28,021 bases of DNA from a virus, in the IMG/VR virus record IMGVR_UViG_3300027806_000129, positions 1 to 28,021 of that record; one strand, 5' to 3'. This document shows, one piece after another, positions 19,589 through 28,021 of the stretch. The notes below the pieces were generated by a model that saw only the letters and a program-made list of their open reading frames with translations, was not told the origin of the DNA and did no database searches. The position numbers and the translations under genes were made by a program. Each line of letters opens with the position of its first letter. The first letter of the stretch is position 1.

Positions 19589-20926
19589 TTAGCGACTCAG
19601 CGCAAAATCAAAATGATGCACATTATTTCTACTAGAATTAGCCACAAATATAGAAAATCCTGGTGAACAACTGTAACCATTTTCCTCTGCCCATCTGTTT
19701 CCTGTAACGATAGGAGCCACAGTTACAGCCCTATATTTGTTTGTGTCACTAAGTATTGTATTCTTTTCCTGAAAAATTTTTGTACTTTTACGTATATGTA
19801 AATGCGCGGTCAAGAATACATTGTACTTACTTTGATCTCCATATTCAAAAACTACTTTACCTAAATCTTGTTTTGCTATTTTATGATCTCCATGATTTAG
19901 AATATAGCAGATATTATCAATTTCAGTATTAATGATAAAAGGATGCCAAGTTGTAGGTACTGTTTTGCTTAACATATAAGCTACAATTTGTGCTGCTCCA
20001 CCATCTTTATCCATAGGTTTTTCTGGAGTTAGTCTATCATGATTACCACTAACCATATAGACGTGTTTTAAATTATTTATAGAAGACAACATCTTATGCA
20101 GTAATTCATATGCTGCAATAATAAGATTTCCGCCTGTCATTCCAAACTCCATTTCTTTAAGAGTCTCTATTTTATTATAGCCAGTTACAGACTCTACCAA
20201 ATCTCCCAATATTACAACGTGTACTTCTTTAAATCCGAGTTGATTTGTTTTAGTAACTATTTCTGTAAGATATTCTGTTAATTTACGAACATTGTATTCT
20301 TGTGTATGTTTAGTAAATTTCTCTATTTTTAGTCCAGCATGAATATCAGCTAAAGCAACAACTCCCGCATTAAAATTTTCTGTCTTAACAATATTTATCT
20401 TATCATTTTTAACAAATTGATTCACAATTTTATATATCTTTTGATAATCAATCTCGTTTTCTTTCTTTACAAGCTGAACATTTACTAAATAGTTAGTCTT
20501 TTTTACGGGAGTGTGTACTATTTTACCATCTTTTATTTTTTCTATTTTCATTGAAGTATCCCAAGACTTACAATTCCAGGATACTACTTTCCAAATTTTA
20601 GTATCTACTTCAAAGTAATCTAAAGCTTCTTTTAAAGAAGTAATAGGTTTTTCTGTCTTAGCTTTAAGTTCTCTAGTATTCTCATTTTCAAAAATTTCTC
20701 TTCCATTTTCACCCAAAGTAATTTGAGGTGCTGTATTACGTGTTTTTATTACACTTTTGGTTTTTAAATACTTTTTATATAAAGAAATAGTAAATGTTTG
20801 ATTACCTTCTTCTTTTTCTTTAATTATAAAAGCTTTAATACAATCATTATCTGTTTCAAATTCTCCTCTAACTTCATCGTAAAAATCATAAAATTTAGTT
20901 CGTAATTTAACATTAATTTGAGACAT
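19589..20926 (-). CDS. Metallophosphoesterase (calcineurin-like) with extra N-terminal domain
   Basis: Predicted dinuclear-metal phosphodiesterase, possibly a nuclease of the Mre11/SbcD type. The 445-residue protein has the motifs DxH (Asp194, His196), GD (Gly241-Asp242), GNHD (294-297), NHGDH (344-348) and AHLH (374-377, the GHxH position with Ala). Residues 1-185 are an additional region with a possible helix-turn-helix at the start and a beta module containing VSWNCKSW; I recall such a leading part in phage phosphoesterases. The gene starts one base after the RNA polymerase stop, so the two are co-transcribed and it is the last gene of the leftward unit. Its substrate is unknown. Confidence 0.85.
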   Translation of the reverse strand: MSQINVKLRTKFYDFYDEVRGEFETDNDCIKAFIIKEKEEGNQTFTISLYKKYLKTKSVIKTRNTAPQITLGENGREIFENENTRELKAKTEKPITSLKEALDYFEVDTKIWKVVSWNCKSWDTSMKIEKIKDGKIVHTPVKKTNYLVNVQLVKKENEIDYQKIYKIVNQFVKNDKINIVKTENFNAGVVALADIHAGLKIEKFTKHTQEYNVRKLTEYLTEIVTKTNQLGFKEVHVVILGDLVESVTGYNKIETLKEMEFGMTGGNLIIAAYELLHKMLSSINNLKHVYMVSGNHDRLTPEKPMDKDGGAAQIVAYMLSKTVPTTWHPFIINTEIDNICYILNHGDHKIAKQDLGKVVFEYGDQSKYNVFLTAHLHIRKSTKIFQEKNTILSDTNKYRAVTVAPIVTGNRWAEENGYSCSPGFSIFVANSSRNNVHHFDFALSR

Positions 20927-20927
20927 A

Positions 20928-23900
20928 TTATTCTATTATAGTGTTAGTTAACGACACAAGTACTGGAGGATTATTACTAAAAAACTTTAATTGCTCTTCA
21001 GGAGTTCTAGCATTGTAGTAAGTACCAGCAAAAGGTACTAATTCAATACCTATAATCTCATAATTCTTTAATCCCTTGTACTTTCCTTTCTCCATTTCAT
21101 CGTTCCAATTCCAAACTTCTATTAATCTTTGTAACTTTTCAATTTGACGAATTGCAGGAAGAGGACTACGTGCAAGACGTATAGCTTCTTGAGGGTTACT
21201 ATAAAACTGCAATTCAGAATGTATTCTCAATGCTTCGTAAGCAATAAATGCTGCTACCCAATTATCTTCATCATCTGCATATGCAGTAGCTAAAGAAGCT
21301 ATTGCTGCTGTAGCAAGCATAAAACTAAATTCTGTGGCAACACGGATTAAATTAGCTTTTTCTACTGCTTTTATAGTTTCGTCAGTAGTTCCTAAAGTAT
21401 CTTTAAGTTCTGTCAATTCTAGAATAGAACGTTTTAACACTCTCCACAGTGTTGTGTAATATCCTTCTGTATAAATTTCCCCTTCCTCATTATAAGTAAG
21501 TTTTTCAAATCGTCTGTTCCACCCTGGTTTCATCCATTTTCTAAATAATAAACCCATTCGTCCTATAGCATATCTATGAACTGCTGCTTTATCTATATCA
21601 TTATAGATACCATGTAATCTCTTATTTAAGAAGTTTTGTCTGTTAATAAATCTATTAACATCTTTTTGAGTCAATGGCTTACCGTTTTCTTCTTTCTTAA
21701 ATAAATCAGTTGCTTTTTCTCCTCCTACCTTTGTCAATCCTTCTTTTAATTTAAGTCTATAAGATGGATTTTCCTCTGTTCCCACATTTACAACATCATA
21801 AGCTTCCCAAAGAGTCATTATATTTCCTTCAGTATCTTTTACTTTTATTCTTTGAGCAAGTGCTAAAGAAGATTTAAGCTGCATATAATGTTCACCACTT
21901 CTATTCATAAAGTATAAACTAGATTGAGTAAACATTCTAGAGAACCAATTTGTTCTACCAGTATTTGCGTCTCTTAATTCTCTATTGTAGTCTTGCAGTG
22001 TATTATGATATTCACTCCATAAGCTTAATTTATTAGATACATTTCTAGCACCAATATCTTTTAAAGTACTAGGTAATTCACTTAAATAAATTTTATCTGC
22101 TTCTAATAAATCTTTATTAGTAATAAGTTCTCCAGCAAATGCTTCCATTCTAGTCATTATATTACCATAAGCTAAGTTAGCAACACCTGCATAAACGTTC
22201 AAAGCAAGAGAAGATAAAGATGTATATTTATTTAAAGTATCTGCAAGCTTTGCAAATTTTTCATCTTTCTTTTCATTACCATAAATTACCATTTCCATAT
22301 AATCTTGATAACGTGCAAATGCTTTACTATTTTCACCTTTAATAGTAATTTGTTTACCTTTTTCTCCTTCTTTTTTAAAGTAAGTAATAGGATCAAAAGT
22401 ACCTGTTAATATTTCTCTTTCAATAAGAATATCTTTAGATAGTTCCACCATATCTACTACTTTACTAATAGCCTGATAGTTATAAGCTGAGTTAACTAAA
22501 GCAATTAATGAAGAACTTGCATCAGTAGATAATTGTGTAGGATCAATAGGTCTAGTATAGAACATAGGTACAAAATTTACAGGATTACCTTTTTCATCTG
22601 TAAGTTTTGTTAATCCAAACTCTATATCATCACCAGCTTGCTTTTTAAAAGCTTCCAGTATAGTTTCCTTACCTTCGTTTAAATAATCTTTAGGAGATTT
22701 AAGAGTTCTTTCTCCATTTTTATCTACAAAAGCTAATCTTTCAAAGAAATCTTTTCTTACTTGTGGCATATAACCAAATAGTTTATATGCTTCAGGTAAT
22801 TGAGATTCTACTTCTTTTAATAAATTAGTATATTTATCATAATAAGCTTTAAGTGCTGGATTATTTTCAATCTCTGCAAATTGACGGCTTAAATACTTAT
22901 CAGAAGGAACAGCAAGTTCTTTAATATATCTAAGTTCACGCTCTCCACTTTCAGGATTATATATTTCTGTACTATTTTTAGCAACCCAGGCATTATACTC
23001 CCTTATACCAATACGTTGACCATATCGTGTAATAAATTCCTTTTTCTTATTTTCTAAAACTTCTTTATAATTAGGATTTACTTGAGTATTAATACTAAAC
23101 CACTCTGCTACTTTTCTATTCCACTCTCTTTGTTTAAATGCATCTTCTGGTTTTGGTCCAATAGACTTAAAAAAGGCAGATTTTGCTTTATTATATTCAG
23201 CAACATTCCACTTACTAATCATTCTACCTGAAAGATTGCCTGCAAAATCTCTTTCATACATCCAATTAGTAGATTTAATACCAGCTTTTTCTAATTCCTG
23301 CTGCATATCTACTATAGATTTTGCTTTTTCTAGTAATGGTACTCTATAATTATTTAATGAGTCTTTAACAATAATATCAATAATTTTTAAAATAGGATCA
23401 CCGGATTCAGCTAAAGCATCTAAACCTCGTTGAGTAAAAGAAATATCTTTTTCTAATACTTCTAGTGCTTTTTCCATATCCTGTTTTAATTTAGGATTAG
23501 ATGAAAAAGACTTAAATATATCAGCAAGAAGTGTTTTACCTAATTTTAAATAATTATTTTTTAAAGCTTGAGTAGTCACATAGGTATCACTAGCTTTAAC
23601 ATTAATACTATTATTCGTAAAAGGTTTATCTGTTGCTAATTTTTCTAATGTACTTTCAAAACCTAAAACATAATTTTGTGCAGAACGAAGAGTATTAATT
23701 AATTCTCTTTTTTCTTCTAAAGTTTCAGGTATTCCATTTTTAATAATTTCACCGATTTGATTATATCGTTTTGCAACTGTATCCAATTCAATTCGTGCAT
23801 TAGCTAAATATCTTAATAAACCTAACTCATATTTCTCTTTATTAAGATCTTTTATTAATTTGTCAAAAATGTCTTTTTCTCTTTGTAAGTAGGTACTACC

Positions 23901-26900
23901 AGCTTTTCTTTCATATAAAGATAATTTCTTAAAAATAGAATCAATACCAAGTTTAAGAGTTTCTATATTATCGTTAATGTCTTTTTCAGAACTTAACTTA
24001 TAAAATACCTCTCCAATTTTAATATTTCTGTTAGTAAATATATTGGTATTACCAGCTAATATTTGTTCTGCAATATATTCTGTAATACTATTTACTTCTT
24101 TATTAAAATCAGCTATATCTACTTTTCTAAAAATACCAATAAATCTGTTCCATAAAGCTTCTAAGAATTGAAGTACTACGTTATTAGTGTTTTTTCTAGT
24201 TTCATTATACCGCTTAACAATAGCTTTTCCTATAAGTTTACCAATCGTTTCTCTTTTTAAAGTAGTTATATCTCCAGCATAAATCTCTCCATATTCATTT
24301 ACTACTTCTTTATACTCGGCAGTATTTTGAACTAAACCCATTAAACTATCGTGAAAAGATGTTCCTCTAGTAAATGCTTCTGCAAAGTGTCCAATTTCTT
24401 CAGGAAGAGTATTTACATTTTCTTTATTTTGTGAAATAAGAATAAGTTTATTGTAAATATCCGCAGCACCAGCAGCATCTATACCTAATCTAGATTTAAG
24501 ATTTTCGTGTGCTTCTACTTTAATTCCTAAAGAACTAGCAAATGTTTTTAATATATTATTAAGATTTTCATCTGCTTTCTTAACGTTTTGTTGAGAATTT
24601 TCTAAAGAATATAAAGTTGTATAATCATAATCTACATCGAAGTAGCTGTCAGCATTAATAGATTTGATTTTGTTAGAAGGTATATTTGTTTCAGCAGGAT
24701 TTAATTTATCAAACTCTACAATATGGTTTTCATATCCTAGATTTTCCTGAATATTAAATACAGTTTCATTATTTTTAGTAGTTCCACTATATTTAAAAGT
24801 ATAGGTGATACCGTTACTATTTTCGTATAAAAACCGATTACGTATTACTTTCCCTTCTTCATCATAAATACCTAAACTTCTACTTTTAGCTTCGTCAAAT
24901 TTCATACTAGTAACAAAACCACCTTTATTCTTTTTTGTTACAGTTACATCTTCTTTTTTCAAAGTTTGAAGTAAAGTATTATAAGTACTTTTATGTCTAT
25001 ATATTTGATCTAAATAATTTGCAATTAAATGCGTACTATCTTTTTCATTTTGTAATCTATATACAAAATCTCGATAAGAAACATCCTCTTTATTTCTTAG
25101 GTTTTCTAAGAAATTAATAGGAGTTAGATGAGAAAATCCAGTATATTTAAATCCTAAATATGTAGTAAAAAAAGCATAGTTTAATAAATCATTGGCCATT
25201 CCTTTAATCTCTACATTATCAGAACCTAACATAGATTCCCAAGCATCTTGTAATCGCTCTATCTGCTCATTACTAATAGTAGCAGCAGAAGTAAACTCAA
25301 TTCTTTGTAGGTTATTAAACGAACTCTTACTTTTAACAGCAAGATATTTAATCAATTCTAATTCAGGATATTTTTTCTTTAATGCTACAAATTTAGCAGG
25401 GTATTCATTTATATAATATAATTTTTTAGTCTCATCAAAGAAACTAAAATCACTTATATAAAAATGAATAAAGTTATTAAATACATAATTTATTTCATCT
25501 GCTGTTAATTCTTGACCTTTATTATTTTCTAAAACATTAACTAATGTCTTAAATAGTTTTCCATTATAAGGAAAATATCTAGATAGTATCTCCTCTTGTG
25601 GTTTTTTAACACCGTATTCAATAGATATATCAATTAAAGGAATATTTAAAACTGAATCAATTCCAGTTAAAGATTTTAGTTTACTTACATTACCAACACT
25701 TTCTAAAAAATGAGTATTTTCTGCAAGAGTTTTACCTACACCATTAGTATCTGCTTTTGAAGCTTTAATTAAAGCAGATAATTGTTTGCCTGTTTTTCTT
25801 AATTCTAAGAAAGTTTCTAAAACTTTAGCTTGTAATAGTGCTGCTTTACGTTTTGCAGTAGGATCAGGAATATTAGCAAGACTCACAAAAGATTTTCCTA
25901 ATTCTTTTGTACTTAAATCATACATTTTAGATTTAGGATAATCTCCAATAATTTTTGTAAGTTGTTGCCGTAAATCTGTTACAATCTTATCAACTTTTGC
26001 TTCTGACTTATTTTGATTATTATATTGATTAACTAGATTTTTTAAGATAGATTGATTAATAAAATACATCGCTGTTTTTAAACTAAATCCAGCACGTATA
26101 ATTAAAGCAACACTATCAAAAGTAAATAAGTTAAGATTTAAACCAGTTGCTACGGGGTCTTTTGCTGTATCTACAAACGCACCTAAAAATTCTGCTAAGT
26201 TTTGACCTACTGATCTTCCTTGCTCTGTTGTTTCCGTAGTATGTAAAGAAGATCTTCTTTCTCCGTCAAAACTAATTGATTGTGTTAAACCAAGTTTAGA
26301 ATATTGAGTAAGAGCATGACTACTATTGTGATTAGCAGCAAGACCAATTAAATTCCCACCATTACTATTGATATCAAAATATTTACTTTCTGTTCTTGGT
26401 AATATAATATTATCTTGACGTATCAACGCTCCATAAGAATCTCTTATTTCATTATGTAGAGTTTTTAAAGTATCAAATCCACCTGGAGTTAATACTTTAC
26501 TCGACATATCAGGATGAGAATATATACTGTTTATAATATCTAATAATGCATTATCTCTCTGAACTTTAGATAAAGTTTCAGGTTTATCTAAATTATATTT
26601 TACTTTTCTTAACTTCCAATTTACTTCTTCTAGAGTAGGAAGAATAGTGTAAATTTTATCAATATCGAAGTCTTCACCAGCAATAGTAGTAATATCATAA
26701 GGTAGTAAAGCAACACTACCCATAATATCGGGAGTAAATCCTACAATTTTCATTTTTTTAATAGAGTACCATCCTTCTGTGGGAATACGATAGCCTATTA
26801 ATTCTAATACTTCTGGAGATTCTTTTTGAAGCTGTTCAATATCTACTTCACCTTTCTTATCTTTTAATTCAAAAAACTTACGAGTATAAGCAGGAAGCAT

Positions 26901-28021
26901 TACTTCCATATACTCTACTCCACCTTCTTTATTTTTTACTATTTTTAATTTCTTATCTAATCCCCAACTAGAAACCAAAGTAAGAGAAGCACCAGCAATT
27001 TTTTGTTTTGTAACATTATTACGAATAACAGCATTTAAAATATTTTGTGTTCTTCTACCATGAATAGGATCAAATAGAGGAATATTAAATATTTTATTAC
27101 CTTCTTGATCAATTACAATTTTTAAAGCTTCGGCATAAGACTCACTTAGACCACGATCTCTAACTTGTTCTAATAGCAATTTTTGAACACTTTCAATGGT
27201 CTGAAATTCACCAGATAGAGTATTATAAGATTCTATAATATTATCTGTTAATAGTTTTTGATAGGTTTTGAATAATTCTTGTTTATTCATACCCATAATT
27301 TCAATATTATCAGGAATTTCAGATAAAGCTAATTTCTTAAACTGAGTTCCAAGTAATACTTCAATATCTAAATGTTTAGCTGGTACTCTTTGCTGAATAC
27401 CATAATCCTTATTATTTAAGATGTGAATAACTGGTTTTGCACCTTTTAAAAATTCTTCTACTGTTACTGCACCGTATTCTCCTACTTTAACAGCAGAGTC
27501 TGCAAATTGAATTTCATCAATATTATTAGCATCCATGTAATCCAGTAATTTTTTTAATACTGGATTTTCTTTAGCCATAGCTGGCGTAAGTAATGCTTGG
27601 CTGTTTTTATGCTGTACTGGTATAATTATATCAGTACCATCTATATTTTCGTGTGTAAATGCAAAAGGCTTTATAGAAGATGGTAGAAAATTAGAAAATC
27701 CTGTACTCCATGCTCCTTTCTGTGCTTTTTGATAAGTAGATTCGTGTTGATCTGTCCATTTACCAATACCAATCATTATGTTTTTATATCTATTTAAACG
27801 AATAAATGATTGAGCATCTGTAACATTTACATTTTTAAATAGTTCTGTATCTTCTTTAACATCTTTTAAATAAATACTTTTATAATATTGTCCAACACCA
27901 GTACCATCTTTCCAAACAGCAGTAGTATCTAGTCTATCTGTTAATTTATAAATTTGACCATTACGTTTTTGAAATGTAATAGAATCTTTATAGAAAGATA
28001 GATCAATAGATGTTAATTGAA
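20928..28021 (-). CDS. Giant virion RNA polymerase polyprotein, partial (N-terminus beyond right edge)
   Basis: The longest frame starts at the Met at 27774-27776, but the same frame stays open for 81 further codons to the right edge and reads as coding sequence, so the start is outside the window. At least 2363 residues are visible. Numbering from that Met, GEDFDIDK (Asp369, 371, 373) is the metal-binding catalytic loop of the crAss-like RNA polymerase, set in RIPTEGW ... VGFTPDIMG. NHNSSHALTQYSKLG follows. Then come long helical parts, LPEEIGHF at 1124-1131 (a zincin-like segment with HExxH degraded to EExxH) with a Glu-helix after it, more coiled helices, and a hydrophobic segment at 2150-2166. 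In phi14:2 gp66 the DFDID loop is far into the chain, so upstream RNA polymerase domains are expected off the edge. Likely packaged and injected with the DNA to transcribe early genes. Confidence 0.88.
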   Translation of the reverse strand, partial: QLTSIDLSFYKDSITFQKRNGQIYKLTDRLDTTAVWKDGTGVGQYYKSIYLKDVKEDTELFKNVNVTDAQSFIRLNRYKNIMIGIGKWTDQHESTYQKAQKGAWSTGFSNFLPSSIKPFAFTHENIDGTDIIIPVQHKNSQALLTPAMAKENPVLKKLLDYMDANNIDEIQFADSAVKVGEYGAVTVEEFLKGAKPVIHILNNKDYGIQQRVPAKHLDIEVLLGTQFKKLALSEIPDNIEIMGMNKQELFKTYQKLLTDNIIESYNTLSGEFQTIESVQKLLLEQVRDRGLSESYAEALKIVIDQEGNKIFNIPLFDPIHGRRTQNILNAVIRNNVTKQKIAGASLTLVSSWGLDKKLKIVKNKEGGVEYMEVMLPAYTRKFFELKDKKGEVDIEQLQKESPEVLELIGYRIPTEGWYSIKKMKIVGFTPDIMGSVALLPYDITTIAGEDFDIDKIYTILPTLEEVNWKLRKVKYNLDKPETLSKVQRDNALLDIINSIYSHPDMSSKVLTPGGFDTLKTLHNEIRDSYGALIRQDNIILPRTESKYFDINSNGGNLIGLAANHNSSHALTQYSKLGLTQSISFDGERRSSLHTTETTEQGRSVGQNLAEFLGAFVDTAKDPVATGLNLNLFTFDSVALIIRAGFSLKTAMYFINQSILKNLVNQYNNQNKSEAKVDKIVTDLRQQLTKIIGDYPKSKMYDLSTKELGKSFVSLANIPDPTAKRKAALLQAKVLETFLELRKTGKQLSALIKASKADTNGVGKTLAENTHFLESVGNVSKLKSLTGIDSVLNIPLIDISIEYGVKKPQEEILSRYFPYNGKLFKTLVNVLENNKGQELTADEINYVFNNFIHFYISDFSFFDETKKLYYINEYPAKFVALKKKYPELELIKYLAVKSKSSFNNLQRIEFTSAATISNEQIERLQDAWESMLGSDNVEIKGMANDLLNYAFFTTYLGFKYTGFSHLTPINFLENLRNKEDVSYRDFVYRLQNEKDSTHLIANYLDQIYRHKSTYNTLLQTLKKEDVTVTKKNKGGFVTSMKFDEAKSRSLGIYDEEGKVIRNRFLYENSNGITYTFKYSGTTKNNETVFNIQENLGYENHIVEFDKLNPAETNIPSNKIKSINADSYFDVDYDYTTLYSLENSQQNVKKADENLNNILKTFASSLGIKVEAHENLKSRLGIDAAGAADIYNKLILISQNKENVNTLPEEIGHFAEAFTRGTSFHDSLMGLVQNTAEYKEVVNEYGEIYAGDITTLKRETIGKLIGKAIVKRYNETRKNTNNVVLQFLEALWNRFIGIFRKVDIADFNKEVNSITEYIAEQILAGNTNIFTNRNIKIGEVFYKLSSEKDINDNIETLKLGIDSIFKKLSLYERKAGSTYLQREKDIFDKLIKDLNKEKYELGLLRYLANARIELDTVAKRYNQIGEIIKNGIPETLEEKRELINTLRSAQNYVLGFESTLEKLATDKPFTNNSINVKASDTYVTTQALKNNYLKLGKTLLADIFKSFSSNPKLKQDMEKALEVLEKDISFTQRGLDALAESGDPILKIIDIIVKDSLNNYRVPLLEKAKSIVDMQQELEKAGIKSTNWMYERDFAGNLSGRMISKWNVAEYNKAKSAFFKSIGPKPEDAFKQREWNRKVAEWFSINTQVNPNYKEVLENKKKEFITRYGQRIGIREYNAWVAKNSTEIYNPESGERELRYIKELAVPSDKYLSRQFAEIENNPALKAYYDKYTNLLKEVESQLPEAYKLFGYMPQVRKDFFERLAFVDKNGERTLKSPKDYLNEGKETILEAFKKQAGDDIEFGLTKLTDEKGNPVNFVPMFYTRPIDPTQLSTDASSSLIALVNSAYNYQAISKVVDMVELSKDILIEREILTGTFDPITYFKKEGEKGKQITIKGENSKAFARYQDYMEMVIYGNEKKDEKFAKLADTLNKYTSLSSLALNVYAGVANLAYGNIMTRMEAFAGELITNKDLLEADKIYLSELPSTLKDIGARNVSNKLSLWSEYHNTLQDYNRELRDANTGRTNWFSRMFTQSSLYFMNRSGEHYMQLKSSLALAQRIKVKDTEGNIMTLWEAYDVVNVGTEENPSYRLKLKEGLTKVGGEKATDLFKKEENGKPLTQKDVNRFINRQNFLNKRLHGIYNDIDKAAVHRYAIGRMGLLFRKWMKPGWNRRFEKLTYNEEGEIYTEGYYTTLWRVLKRSILELTELKDTLGTTDETIKAVEKANLIRVATEFSFMLATAAIASLATAYADDEDNWVAAFIAYEALRIHSELQFYSNPQEAIRLARSPLPAIRQIEKLQRLIEVWNWNDEMEKGKYKGLKNYEIIGIELVPFAGTYYNARTPEEQLKFFSNNPPVLVSLTNTIIE

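Follow-up and report, generated by a model that had tools for sequence, protein, structure and literature searches.

The DNA analysed here, referred to below as the window, is a stretch of 28,021 nucleotides from a viral record (IMGVR_UViG_3300027806_000129), and its right-hand end is taken up by a single frame on the minus strand (Table 1). Counted from the first visible ATG, the ORF (20928..27776) is 2282 aa long, and the frame is open right up to the window edge, giving 2363 aa. A preliminary description, made from the letters alone, had placed the catalytic DFDID of an RNA polymerase at residue 369 from that Met with 1909 residues after it (2282–373), and this reading of the minus-strand frame is correct. 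It had also proposed that the contig be extended in search of the real start. A longer viral contig (IMGVR_UViG_3300027816_000067, 124,964 bp; L011) contains the window at 100% identity, and there the frame does not stop just beyond the edge, but runs on for 2532 residues more, to the true start; the first visible Met is internal. The complete ORF (L011:2405-17092) encodes 4895 aa.

The frame is confirmed as the C-terminal half of a crAss-like phage cargo chain in which counterparts of gp47, gp50 (the RNA polymerase) and gp49 are fused, in that order. By homology, the chain is almost certainly virion cargo, because its homologues in crAss001 and phi14:2 are detected in virions: gp47, gp49 and gp50 of crAss001 by virion mass spectrometry (PMC10172136), and gp076–gp078 of phi14:2, annotated as structural from MS/MS. 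The length of the frame owes nothing to recoding of TAG or TGA; it is open under table 11, and the same after recoding. Searches of Pfam, NCBIfam and PHROGs with the chain gave no usable match. In the PDB, a sequence search with the whole chain gave 6VR4 and nothing else below E 1; phmmer matches to pyrrolysyl-tRNA synthetase, at E about 0.8, we regard as chance. After a gap of a single base, the giant ORF is followed on the same strand by a gene for a calcineurin-like metallophosphoesterase/SbcD-type exonuclease (19589-20926 (-); PF00149, phrog_284).

Table 1. Features of the cargo-chain frame within the window
Feature	Position	Strand	Basis or remark
C-terminal 2363 residues of the 4895-residue chain, almost certainly virion cargo	20928..28021	-	5' end outside the window
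gp49-like virion protein module fused to the polymerase (the 'extra' residues)	20931..24674	-	Sequence and fold matches
Hydrophobic stretch EFSFMLATAAIASLATAYA near the C-terminus, inside the conserved gp49 domain	21276..21332	-	Alignment
Zincin-like LPEEIGHF (EExxH)	24384..24407	-	Variant common to most gp49 homologues
Predicted crAss-like virion RNA polymerase part (gp50-like), C-terminal portion of the polymerase module	24708..28019	-	PDB 6VR4, E 1.5e-28
Predicted catalytic DFDID motif	26658..26672	-	Aligns with G-x-D-[FL]-D-x-D of 8 crAss-like RNA polymerases

The DFDxD of the polymerase module, present in its family context, identifies the module by sequence as a crAss-like virion RNA polymerase akin to crAss001 gp50 and phi14:2 gp66, the relatives in which polymerase activity and virion location are known. 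The motif occupies residues 450–454 of the open frame and lies at about residue 2982 of the full chain. Other matches of this part include crAss001 gp50, bajarodcaudo, Dulem 41 and others, and the gp50-like matches to crAss001 span full-chain residues 2009 to about 3636. The phi14:2 polymerase (gp66 of Drobysheva 2021, gp077 of KC821624, PDB 6VR4) has its motif near residue 1365 of 2180; about 815 residues follow, far fewer than here, as the preliminary description had stated. The ~1900 residues that follow DFDID in our chain are the last ~650 of the polymerase module and then a gp49 module of ~1250 residues.

This tail is a recognisable member of the crAss001 gp49/phi14:2 gp076 family. It occupies full-chain residues 3648–4879, and is 29% identical to crAss001 gp49 (E 1e-142, gp49 residues 157–1347) and 31% identical to the bajarodcaudo homologue (E 4e-152). 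An AlphaFold2 model of it (44 sequences, pLDDT 80) points to the same relatives, matching a crAss 'RNA-polymerase subunit' at E 3e-50 and phi14:2 gp076 at E 3e-38, and shows weak fold matches to polyvalent phage proteins as well. Foldseek found nothing in the PDB for this model at E<=0.001, and the VIA-align matches of the tail (Z up to 9.3) were generic helical bundles only. The preliminary description had noticed in the tail a zincin-like LPEEIGHF with its first His lost. The motif is there, with EExxH in place of the HExxH of active zincins, but the H-to-E change is a common variant of the family: about 29 of 44 gp49 homologues have EExxH at this position, and 5 of 44 have HExxH. The helix that holds the motif in the model is of low confidence, and the matches listed include no zincin. 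Many distant gp49 homologues have kept EExxH for HExxH, which is odd for simple decay. The hydrophobic segment reported near the end is likewise present; it lies inside the conserved gp49 fold, and nothing was found for the membrane-active or portal-interacting part that had been suggested.

Upstream of the polymerase, outside the window, the gp47-like part carries an intact zincin motif, HEAFH, at residue 1271. It matches crAss001 gp47 at E 5e-14, and the gp47-type proteins of crAss002 and p-crAssphage match chain residues 56–403. A conserved N-terminal region and an HExxH upstream of the polymerase are both present, which, by motif and position, mark this as a gp47-type module. Between the gp47-type zincin and the remaining gp47-like part, at residues ~1440–1760 of the L011:2405-17092 product, lies a 'VEIQEIQSDLFQKGRD' segment, which may be akin to one found in phage polyvalent proteins.

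Relatives partition these modules differently. The three are separate genes in crAss001, cr128, Dulem 41 and phi14:2, and the polymerase and gp49 are fused in p-crAssphage, crAss002 and jaberico. The preliminary description had named as a refutation homologues that keep polymerase and tail apart, with a start codon at an equivalent position here. Some do keep them apart, but in our chain there is no stop at the joint, and nothing recognisable in it corresponds to the ends that flank the joint in split relatives (~75–210 aa of gp50, ~155 aa of gp49). Long fused polymerases as such are already known—a review puts these genes at up to about 6000 aa (PMC10136315)—and the fusion here is a variant within a known polymerase family. 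In p-crAssphage (Carjivirus communis, BK010471), gp44 (4070 aa) is annotated 'RNAP catalytic subunit fused to unknown RNAP subunit' and gp45 'fused to zincin protease'. Complete gp47–polymerase–gp49 fusion appears to be rare: it occurs in this phage, in L089 (5642 aa), in a contig of Chitinophaga sp. YR573 (5485 aa), and probably in L039, L102 and L134. The Chitinophaga fusion (L351:1067-17539) has no cysteine and sits on a 4.8 Mb contig, possibly as an integrated crAss-like element. L134 has two cysteine-free frames, of 2016 and 2873 aa, whose overlap falls on a near-perfect 13-base repeat (L134:8270-8307); they are probably one fused chain broken by a frameshift. The virion RNA polymerase of P23-45 likewise lies in a chain of ~5000 residues, but is fused to the tape measure protein rather than to gp47 and gp49 (PMC10770324).

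The 4895-residue chain contains no cysteine at all, against 11.2 per 1000 residues in the other proteins of the window. None of the 2364 codons of the window part is TGT or TGC, and the other two frames have 18 and 130 of these triplets. In phi14:2, with a homologous polymerase and the same three modules in the same order, the modules are instead separate proteins of 1797, 2180 and 1421 aa, and these have just four cysteines, all at facing ends: Cys 1797, the last residue of the first protein; Cys 3 and Cys 2179 of the second; and Cys 3 of the third. The homologous cargo of crAss001, thought to be packed in the head (PMC10172136), is encoded by three genes, gp47 on the opposite strand; cysteines stand at the C-terminus of gp47, at both ends of gp50 and at the N-terminus of gp49, with one extra, C1334, in gp50. 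And in p-crAssphage, where gp47 is separate, Cys 1956 of its 1957 residues faces Cys 3 of the gp44 fusion, which is accompanied by several internal cysteines.

Surveyed more widely, the same rule is found: cysteines on both sides of gene breaks, and none at fused joints or outer ends. Gene starts were picked by distance to the upstream stop, blind to cysteine, and the counts and trees cover 80 loci per scan. A first survey found the polymerase C-terminal cysteine in 62/62 loci, the gp49 N-terminal cysteine in 61/62 and a gp49 C-terminal one in 0/60; among control ORFs, 8/173 had cysteine in the N-terminal 10 residues and 41/173 in the C-terminal 16 (Fisher values 2e-29, 3e-46 and 2e-6). Three further scans supplied new loci, none of them related to a member of the first set at >=80% core identity, and of these alone, 60 of 63 have cysteine on both sides and none of 53 at the gp49 C-terminus. 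Across 147 non-redundant loci, the polymerase C-terminus has its cysteine in 114/117, the gp49 N-terminus in 115/117, and both together in 113/117, while the outer ends have none (0/105 at the gp49 C-terminus, 0/44 at the N-terminus of gp47-fused chains). When gp49 is fused, the polymerase C-terminal cysteine is gone (0/15). The N-terminal cysteine of the polymerase is found in none of 44 with gp47 fused and in 21 of 23 with gp47 separate, and 22 of the 23 separate gp47 proteins have one at the C-terminus; this joint is scored on fewer loci because the gp47 module went undetected in 59 loci with separate gp49. In GTDB genomes, scanned with frozen profiles, cysteines occur on both sides of 9/9 split joints and of 7/7 gp47/polymerase joints, and at 0/8 gp49 C-termini; the cysteine-free Chitinophaga fusion comes from this set. 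The N-terminal cysteine of gp49 is invariant in 40 of 40 split homologues despite identities of about 20%, and no other cysteine column of the family is conserved.

The pattern is seen even in phi17:2 (NC_021798, L362 20996-34500), of the distant Epsilon group, which is described as lacking the transcription block. Its gp039 (1957 aa) has Cys 1957, gp038 (517 aa) Cys 4 and 516, and gp036 (1914 aa) Cys 3. These 4388 residues contain no more than four cysteines, every one at a joint. A structural protein of phi17:2 matches the predicted gp49 model at E 5e-18.

There are exceptions. No end cysteine occurs in L062 or L240, where gp49 is not intact nearby; the cysteine is 27 residues from the end in L294 and at residue 20 in L064; and in L329 the polymerase end has none. 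Scarcity of internal cysteines is not universal, their frequency in relatives having a median of 0.28 per 1000 and a maximum of 11.7. Start calls account for several other cases. In L055 and L230 a second ATG places a cysteine near the start, and L086 starts MAC in a frameshifted frame. For crAss002 gp33 (L018:23984), translation seems to have been annotated from 32 codons too far upstream. Begun at the following ATG, the protein reads MSCTPSNP, where Cys 3 is as expected, and the near-identical L104 was given this same start.

The end-cysteines follow the break, not a domain. In 11 non-redundant phages the gp47/polymerase break is upstream of the zincin, displaced by hundreds of residues relative to crAss001, and the cysteine pair is present there. 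In L034 a break divides the gp49 module, and the additional piece, of 456 aa, has cysteines at positions 7 and 455. On a polymerase tree (FastTree), fusion state has undergone at least 6 and 8 changes, and the independent pairs are in the predicted direction or tied, none opposite. For gp47 there are 8 such pairs (median p 0.008); the supported pairs for gp49 number 4, too few for significance alone. Nor is gene overlap the cause of the end-cysteines, because gp47 of crAss001, which is on the other strand and apart from gp50, keeps its C-terminal cysteine. Overlap and translational coupling are ruled out by opposite-strand gp47 in cr128 and bajarodcaudo, too, and by loci where endonuclease-like or other ORFs separate the parts.

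Only the ends that face a neighbour carry cysteine, fused joints lack it, and it moves with the break; for these reasons we favour coupling. Quite probably, the three modules are ejected as one covalent string, held together by disulfides in split relatives and by peptide bonds here. The gp47, polymerase and gp49 modules would be carried in the head and leave it N-terminus first. In split phages, a disulfide would tie the C-terminal cysteine of each protein to the N-terminal one of its successor, the linked pieces would pass through the tail with order and register fixed by the string, and the host cytoplasm would then reduce the disulfides and let the pieces come apart. In fused phages, peptide bonds would take the place of the couplings, the end-cysteines would be lost, and the chain would become cysteine-free. 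For crAss-like phages in general, it is probable that the polymerase complex is ejected as two to four proteins joined end to end by heterotypic disulfides, couplings that reduction undoes. The disulfide chemistry, the identity of the partners, the order of ejection and the release by reduction are what we infer from the placement of the cysteines. Release would not be obligatory, since fused phages have no release step. The anaerobic host cytoplasm is reducing until lysis, which counts against disulfide formation there. In the particle disulfides can form, since crAss001 virions contain inter-protein disulfides elsewhere, in the tail and in gp57 (PMC10172136). The crAss001 cargo is considered to require some unfolding for ejection, and for gp45 threading from N to C has been proposed (PMC10172136). 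The open-access literature yielded no mention of end-cysteines in the cargo of crAss-like phages and no description of the coupling rule, which appears to be new; the polymerase family is not.

Might the end-cysteines act singly instead—in metal binding, in redox sensing, in docking to the portal or to gp45/gp46, or as a packaging tag—with no link to a neighbour? One cysteine per end could serve such roles, and thioredoxin-like genes do lie in or near the block in several relatives. Yet the cysteines are never on outer ends and almost always on inner ones, fused joints have lost both cysteines of the pair, and new pairs appear at breaks elsewhere in the chain, whereas a per-protein tag should persist after fusion, or mark outer ends too; we consider such separate roles unlikely. 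Homotypic disulfides, by which each end-cysteine would oligomerise copies of the same protein, could suit the about 6 copies per virion estimated for crAss001 (PMC10172136), but leave the loss of both cysteines at fusion joints and the cysteine-free outer ends unexplained, and strike us as very unlikely. Scarcely any credence is due to cysteine avoidance alone, by which ejected proteins would escape trapping by oxidation and the end-cysteines would be incidental: it predicts no end-cysteines, yet the gp49 N-terminal cysteine is invariant, and proteins of ~4000 aa keep a single cysteine, within their last few residues. We know of no end-cysteine coupling in the N4-like (Schitoviridae) virion RNA polymerases. 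Those giants, of about 3,400–3,500 aa, are reported to be cysteine-free with that very rationale, and they are single chains, like ours, and ejected (PMC3715699, PMC3915230), but they are described as T7-like (PMC12633501).

The preliminary description had suggested a polyvalent protein delivered with the DNA, uniting polymerase, degenerate protease and a membrane-active or portal-interacting part, and perhaps cleaved after delivery. Part of this stands: a polymerase and further modules do form a single chain, an intact HExxH is present in the gp47-like part, and the weak polyvalent fold matches are there. But the tail belongs to the ordinary gp49 family, evidence of a membrane or portal function was not found in it, and the zincin is found whether the modules are split or fused, so its presence does not go with a need for cleavage; the model as a whole seems to us quite unlikely. 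That the fusion is an assembly artefact, separate genes joined through missing stops, has next to nothing in its favour in our estimation, even though the two contigs with the sequence are identical and may share source data. The divergent L022 (52% core identity) has the same polymerase–gp49 fusion, triple fusions recur in L089 and in the Chitinophaga contig, and the absence of end-cysteines is what a real fusion predicts.

Several proteins of 150–280 kDa each have to pass in order through a tail constriction of <50 angstroms. A rule seen across a phage order, in cultured and metagenomic members alike, points to a simple way: the proteins would be links of one chain. The rule predicts which ends touch, and helps to call gene starts. 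It suggests a way, too, to find chain partners in unannotated phages, having picked out the three cargo genes of phi17:2. And it would explain why the cargo genes of crAss-like phages fuse and split so freely.
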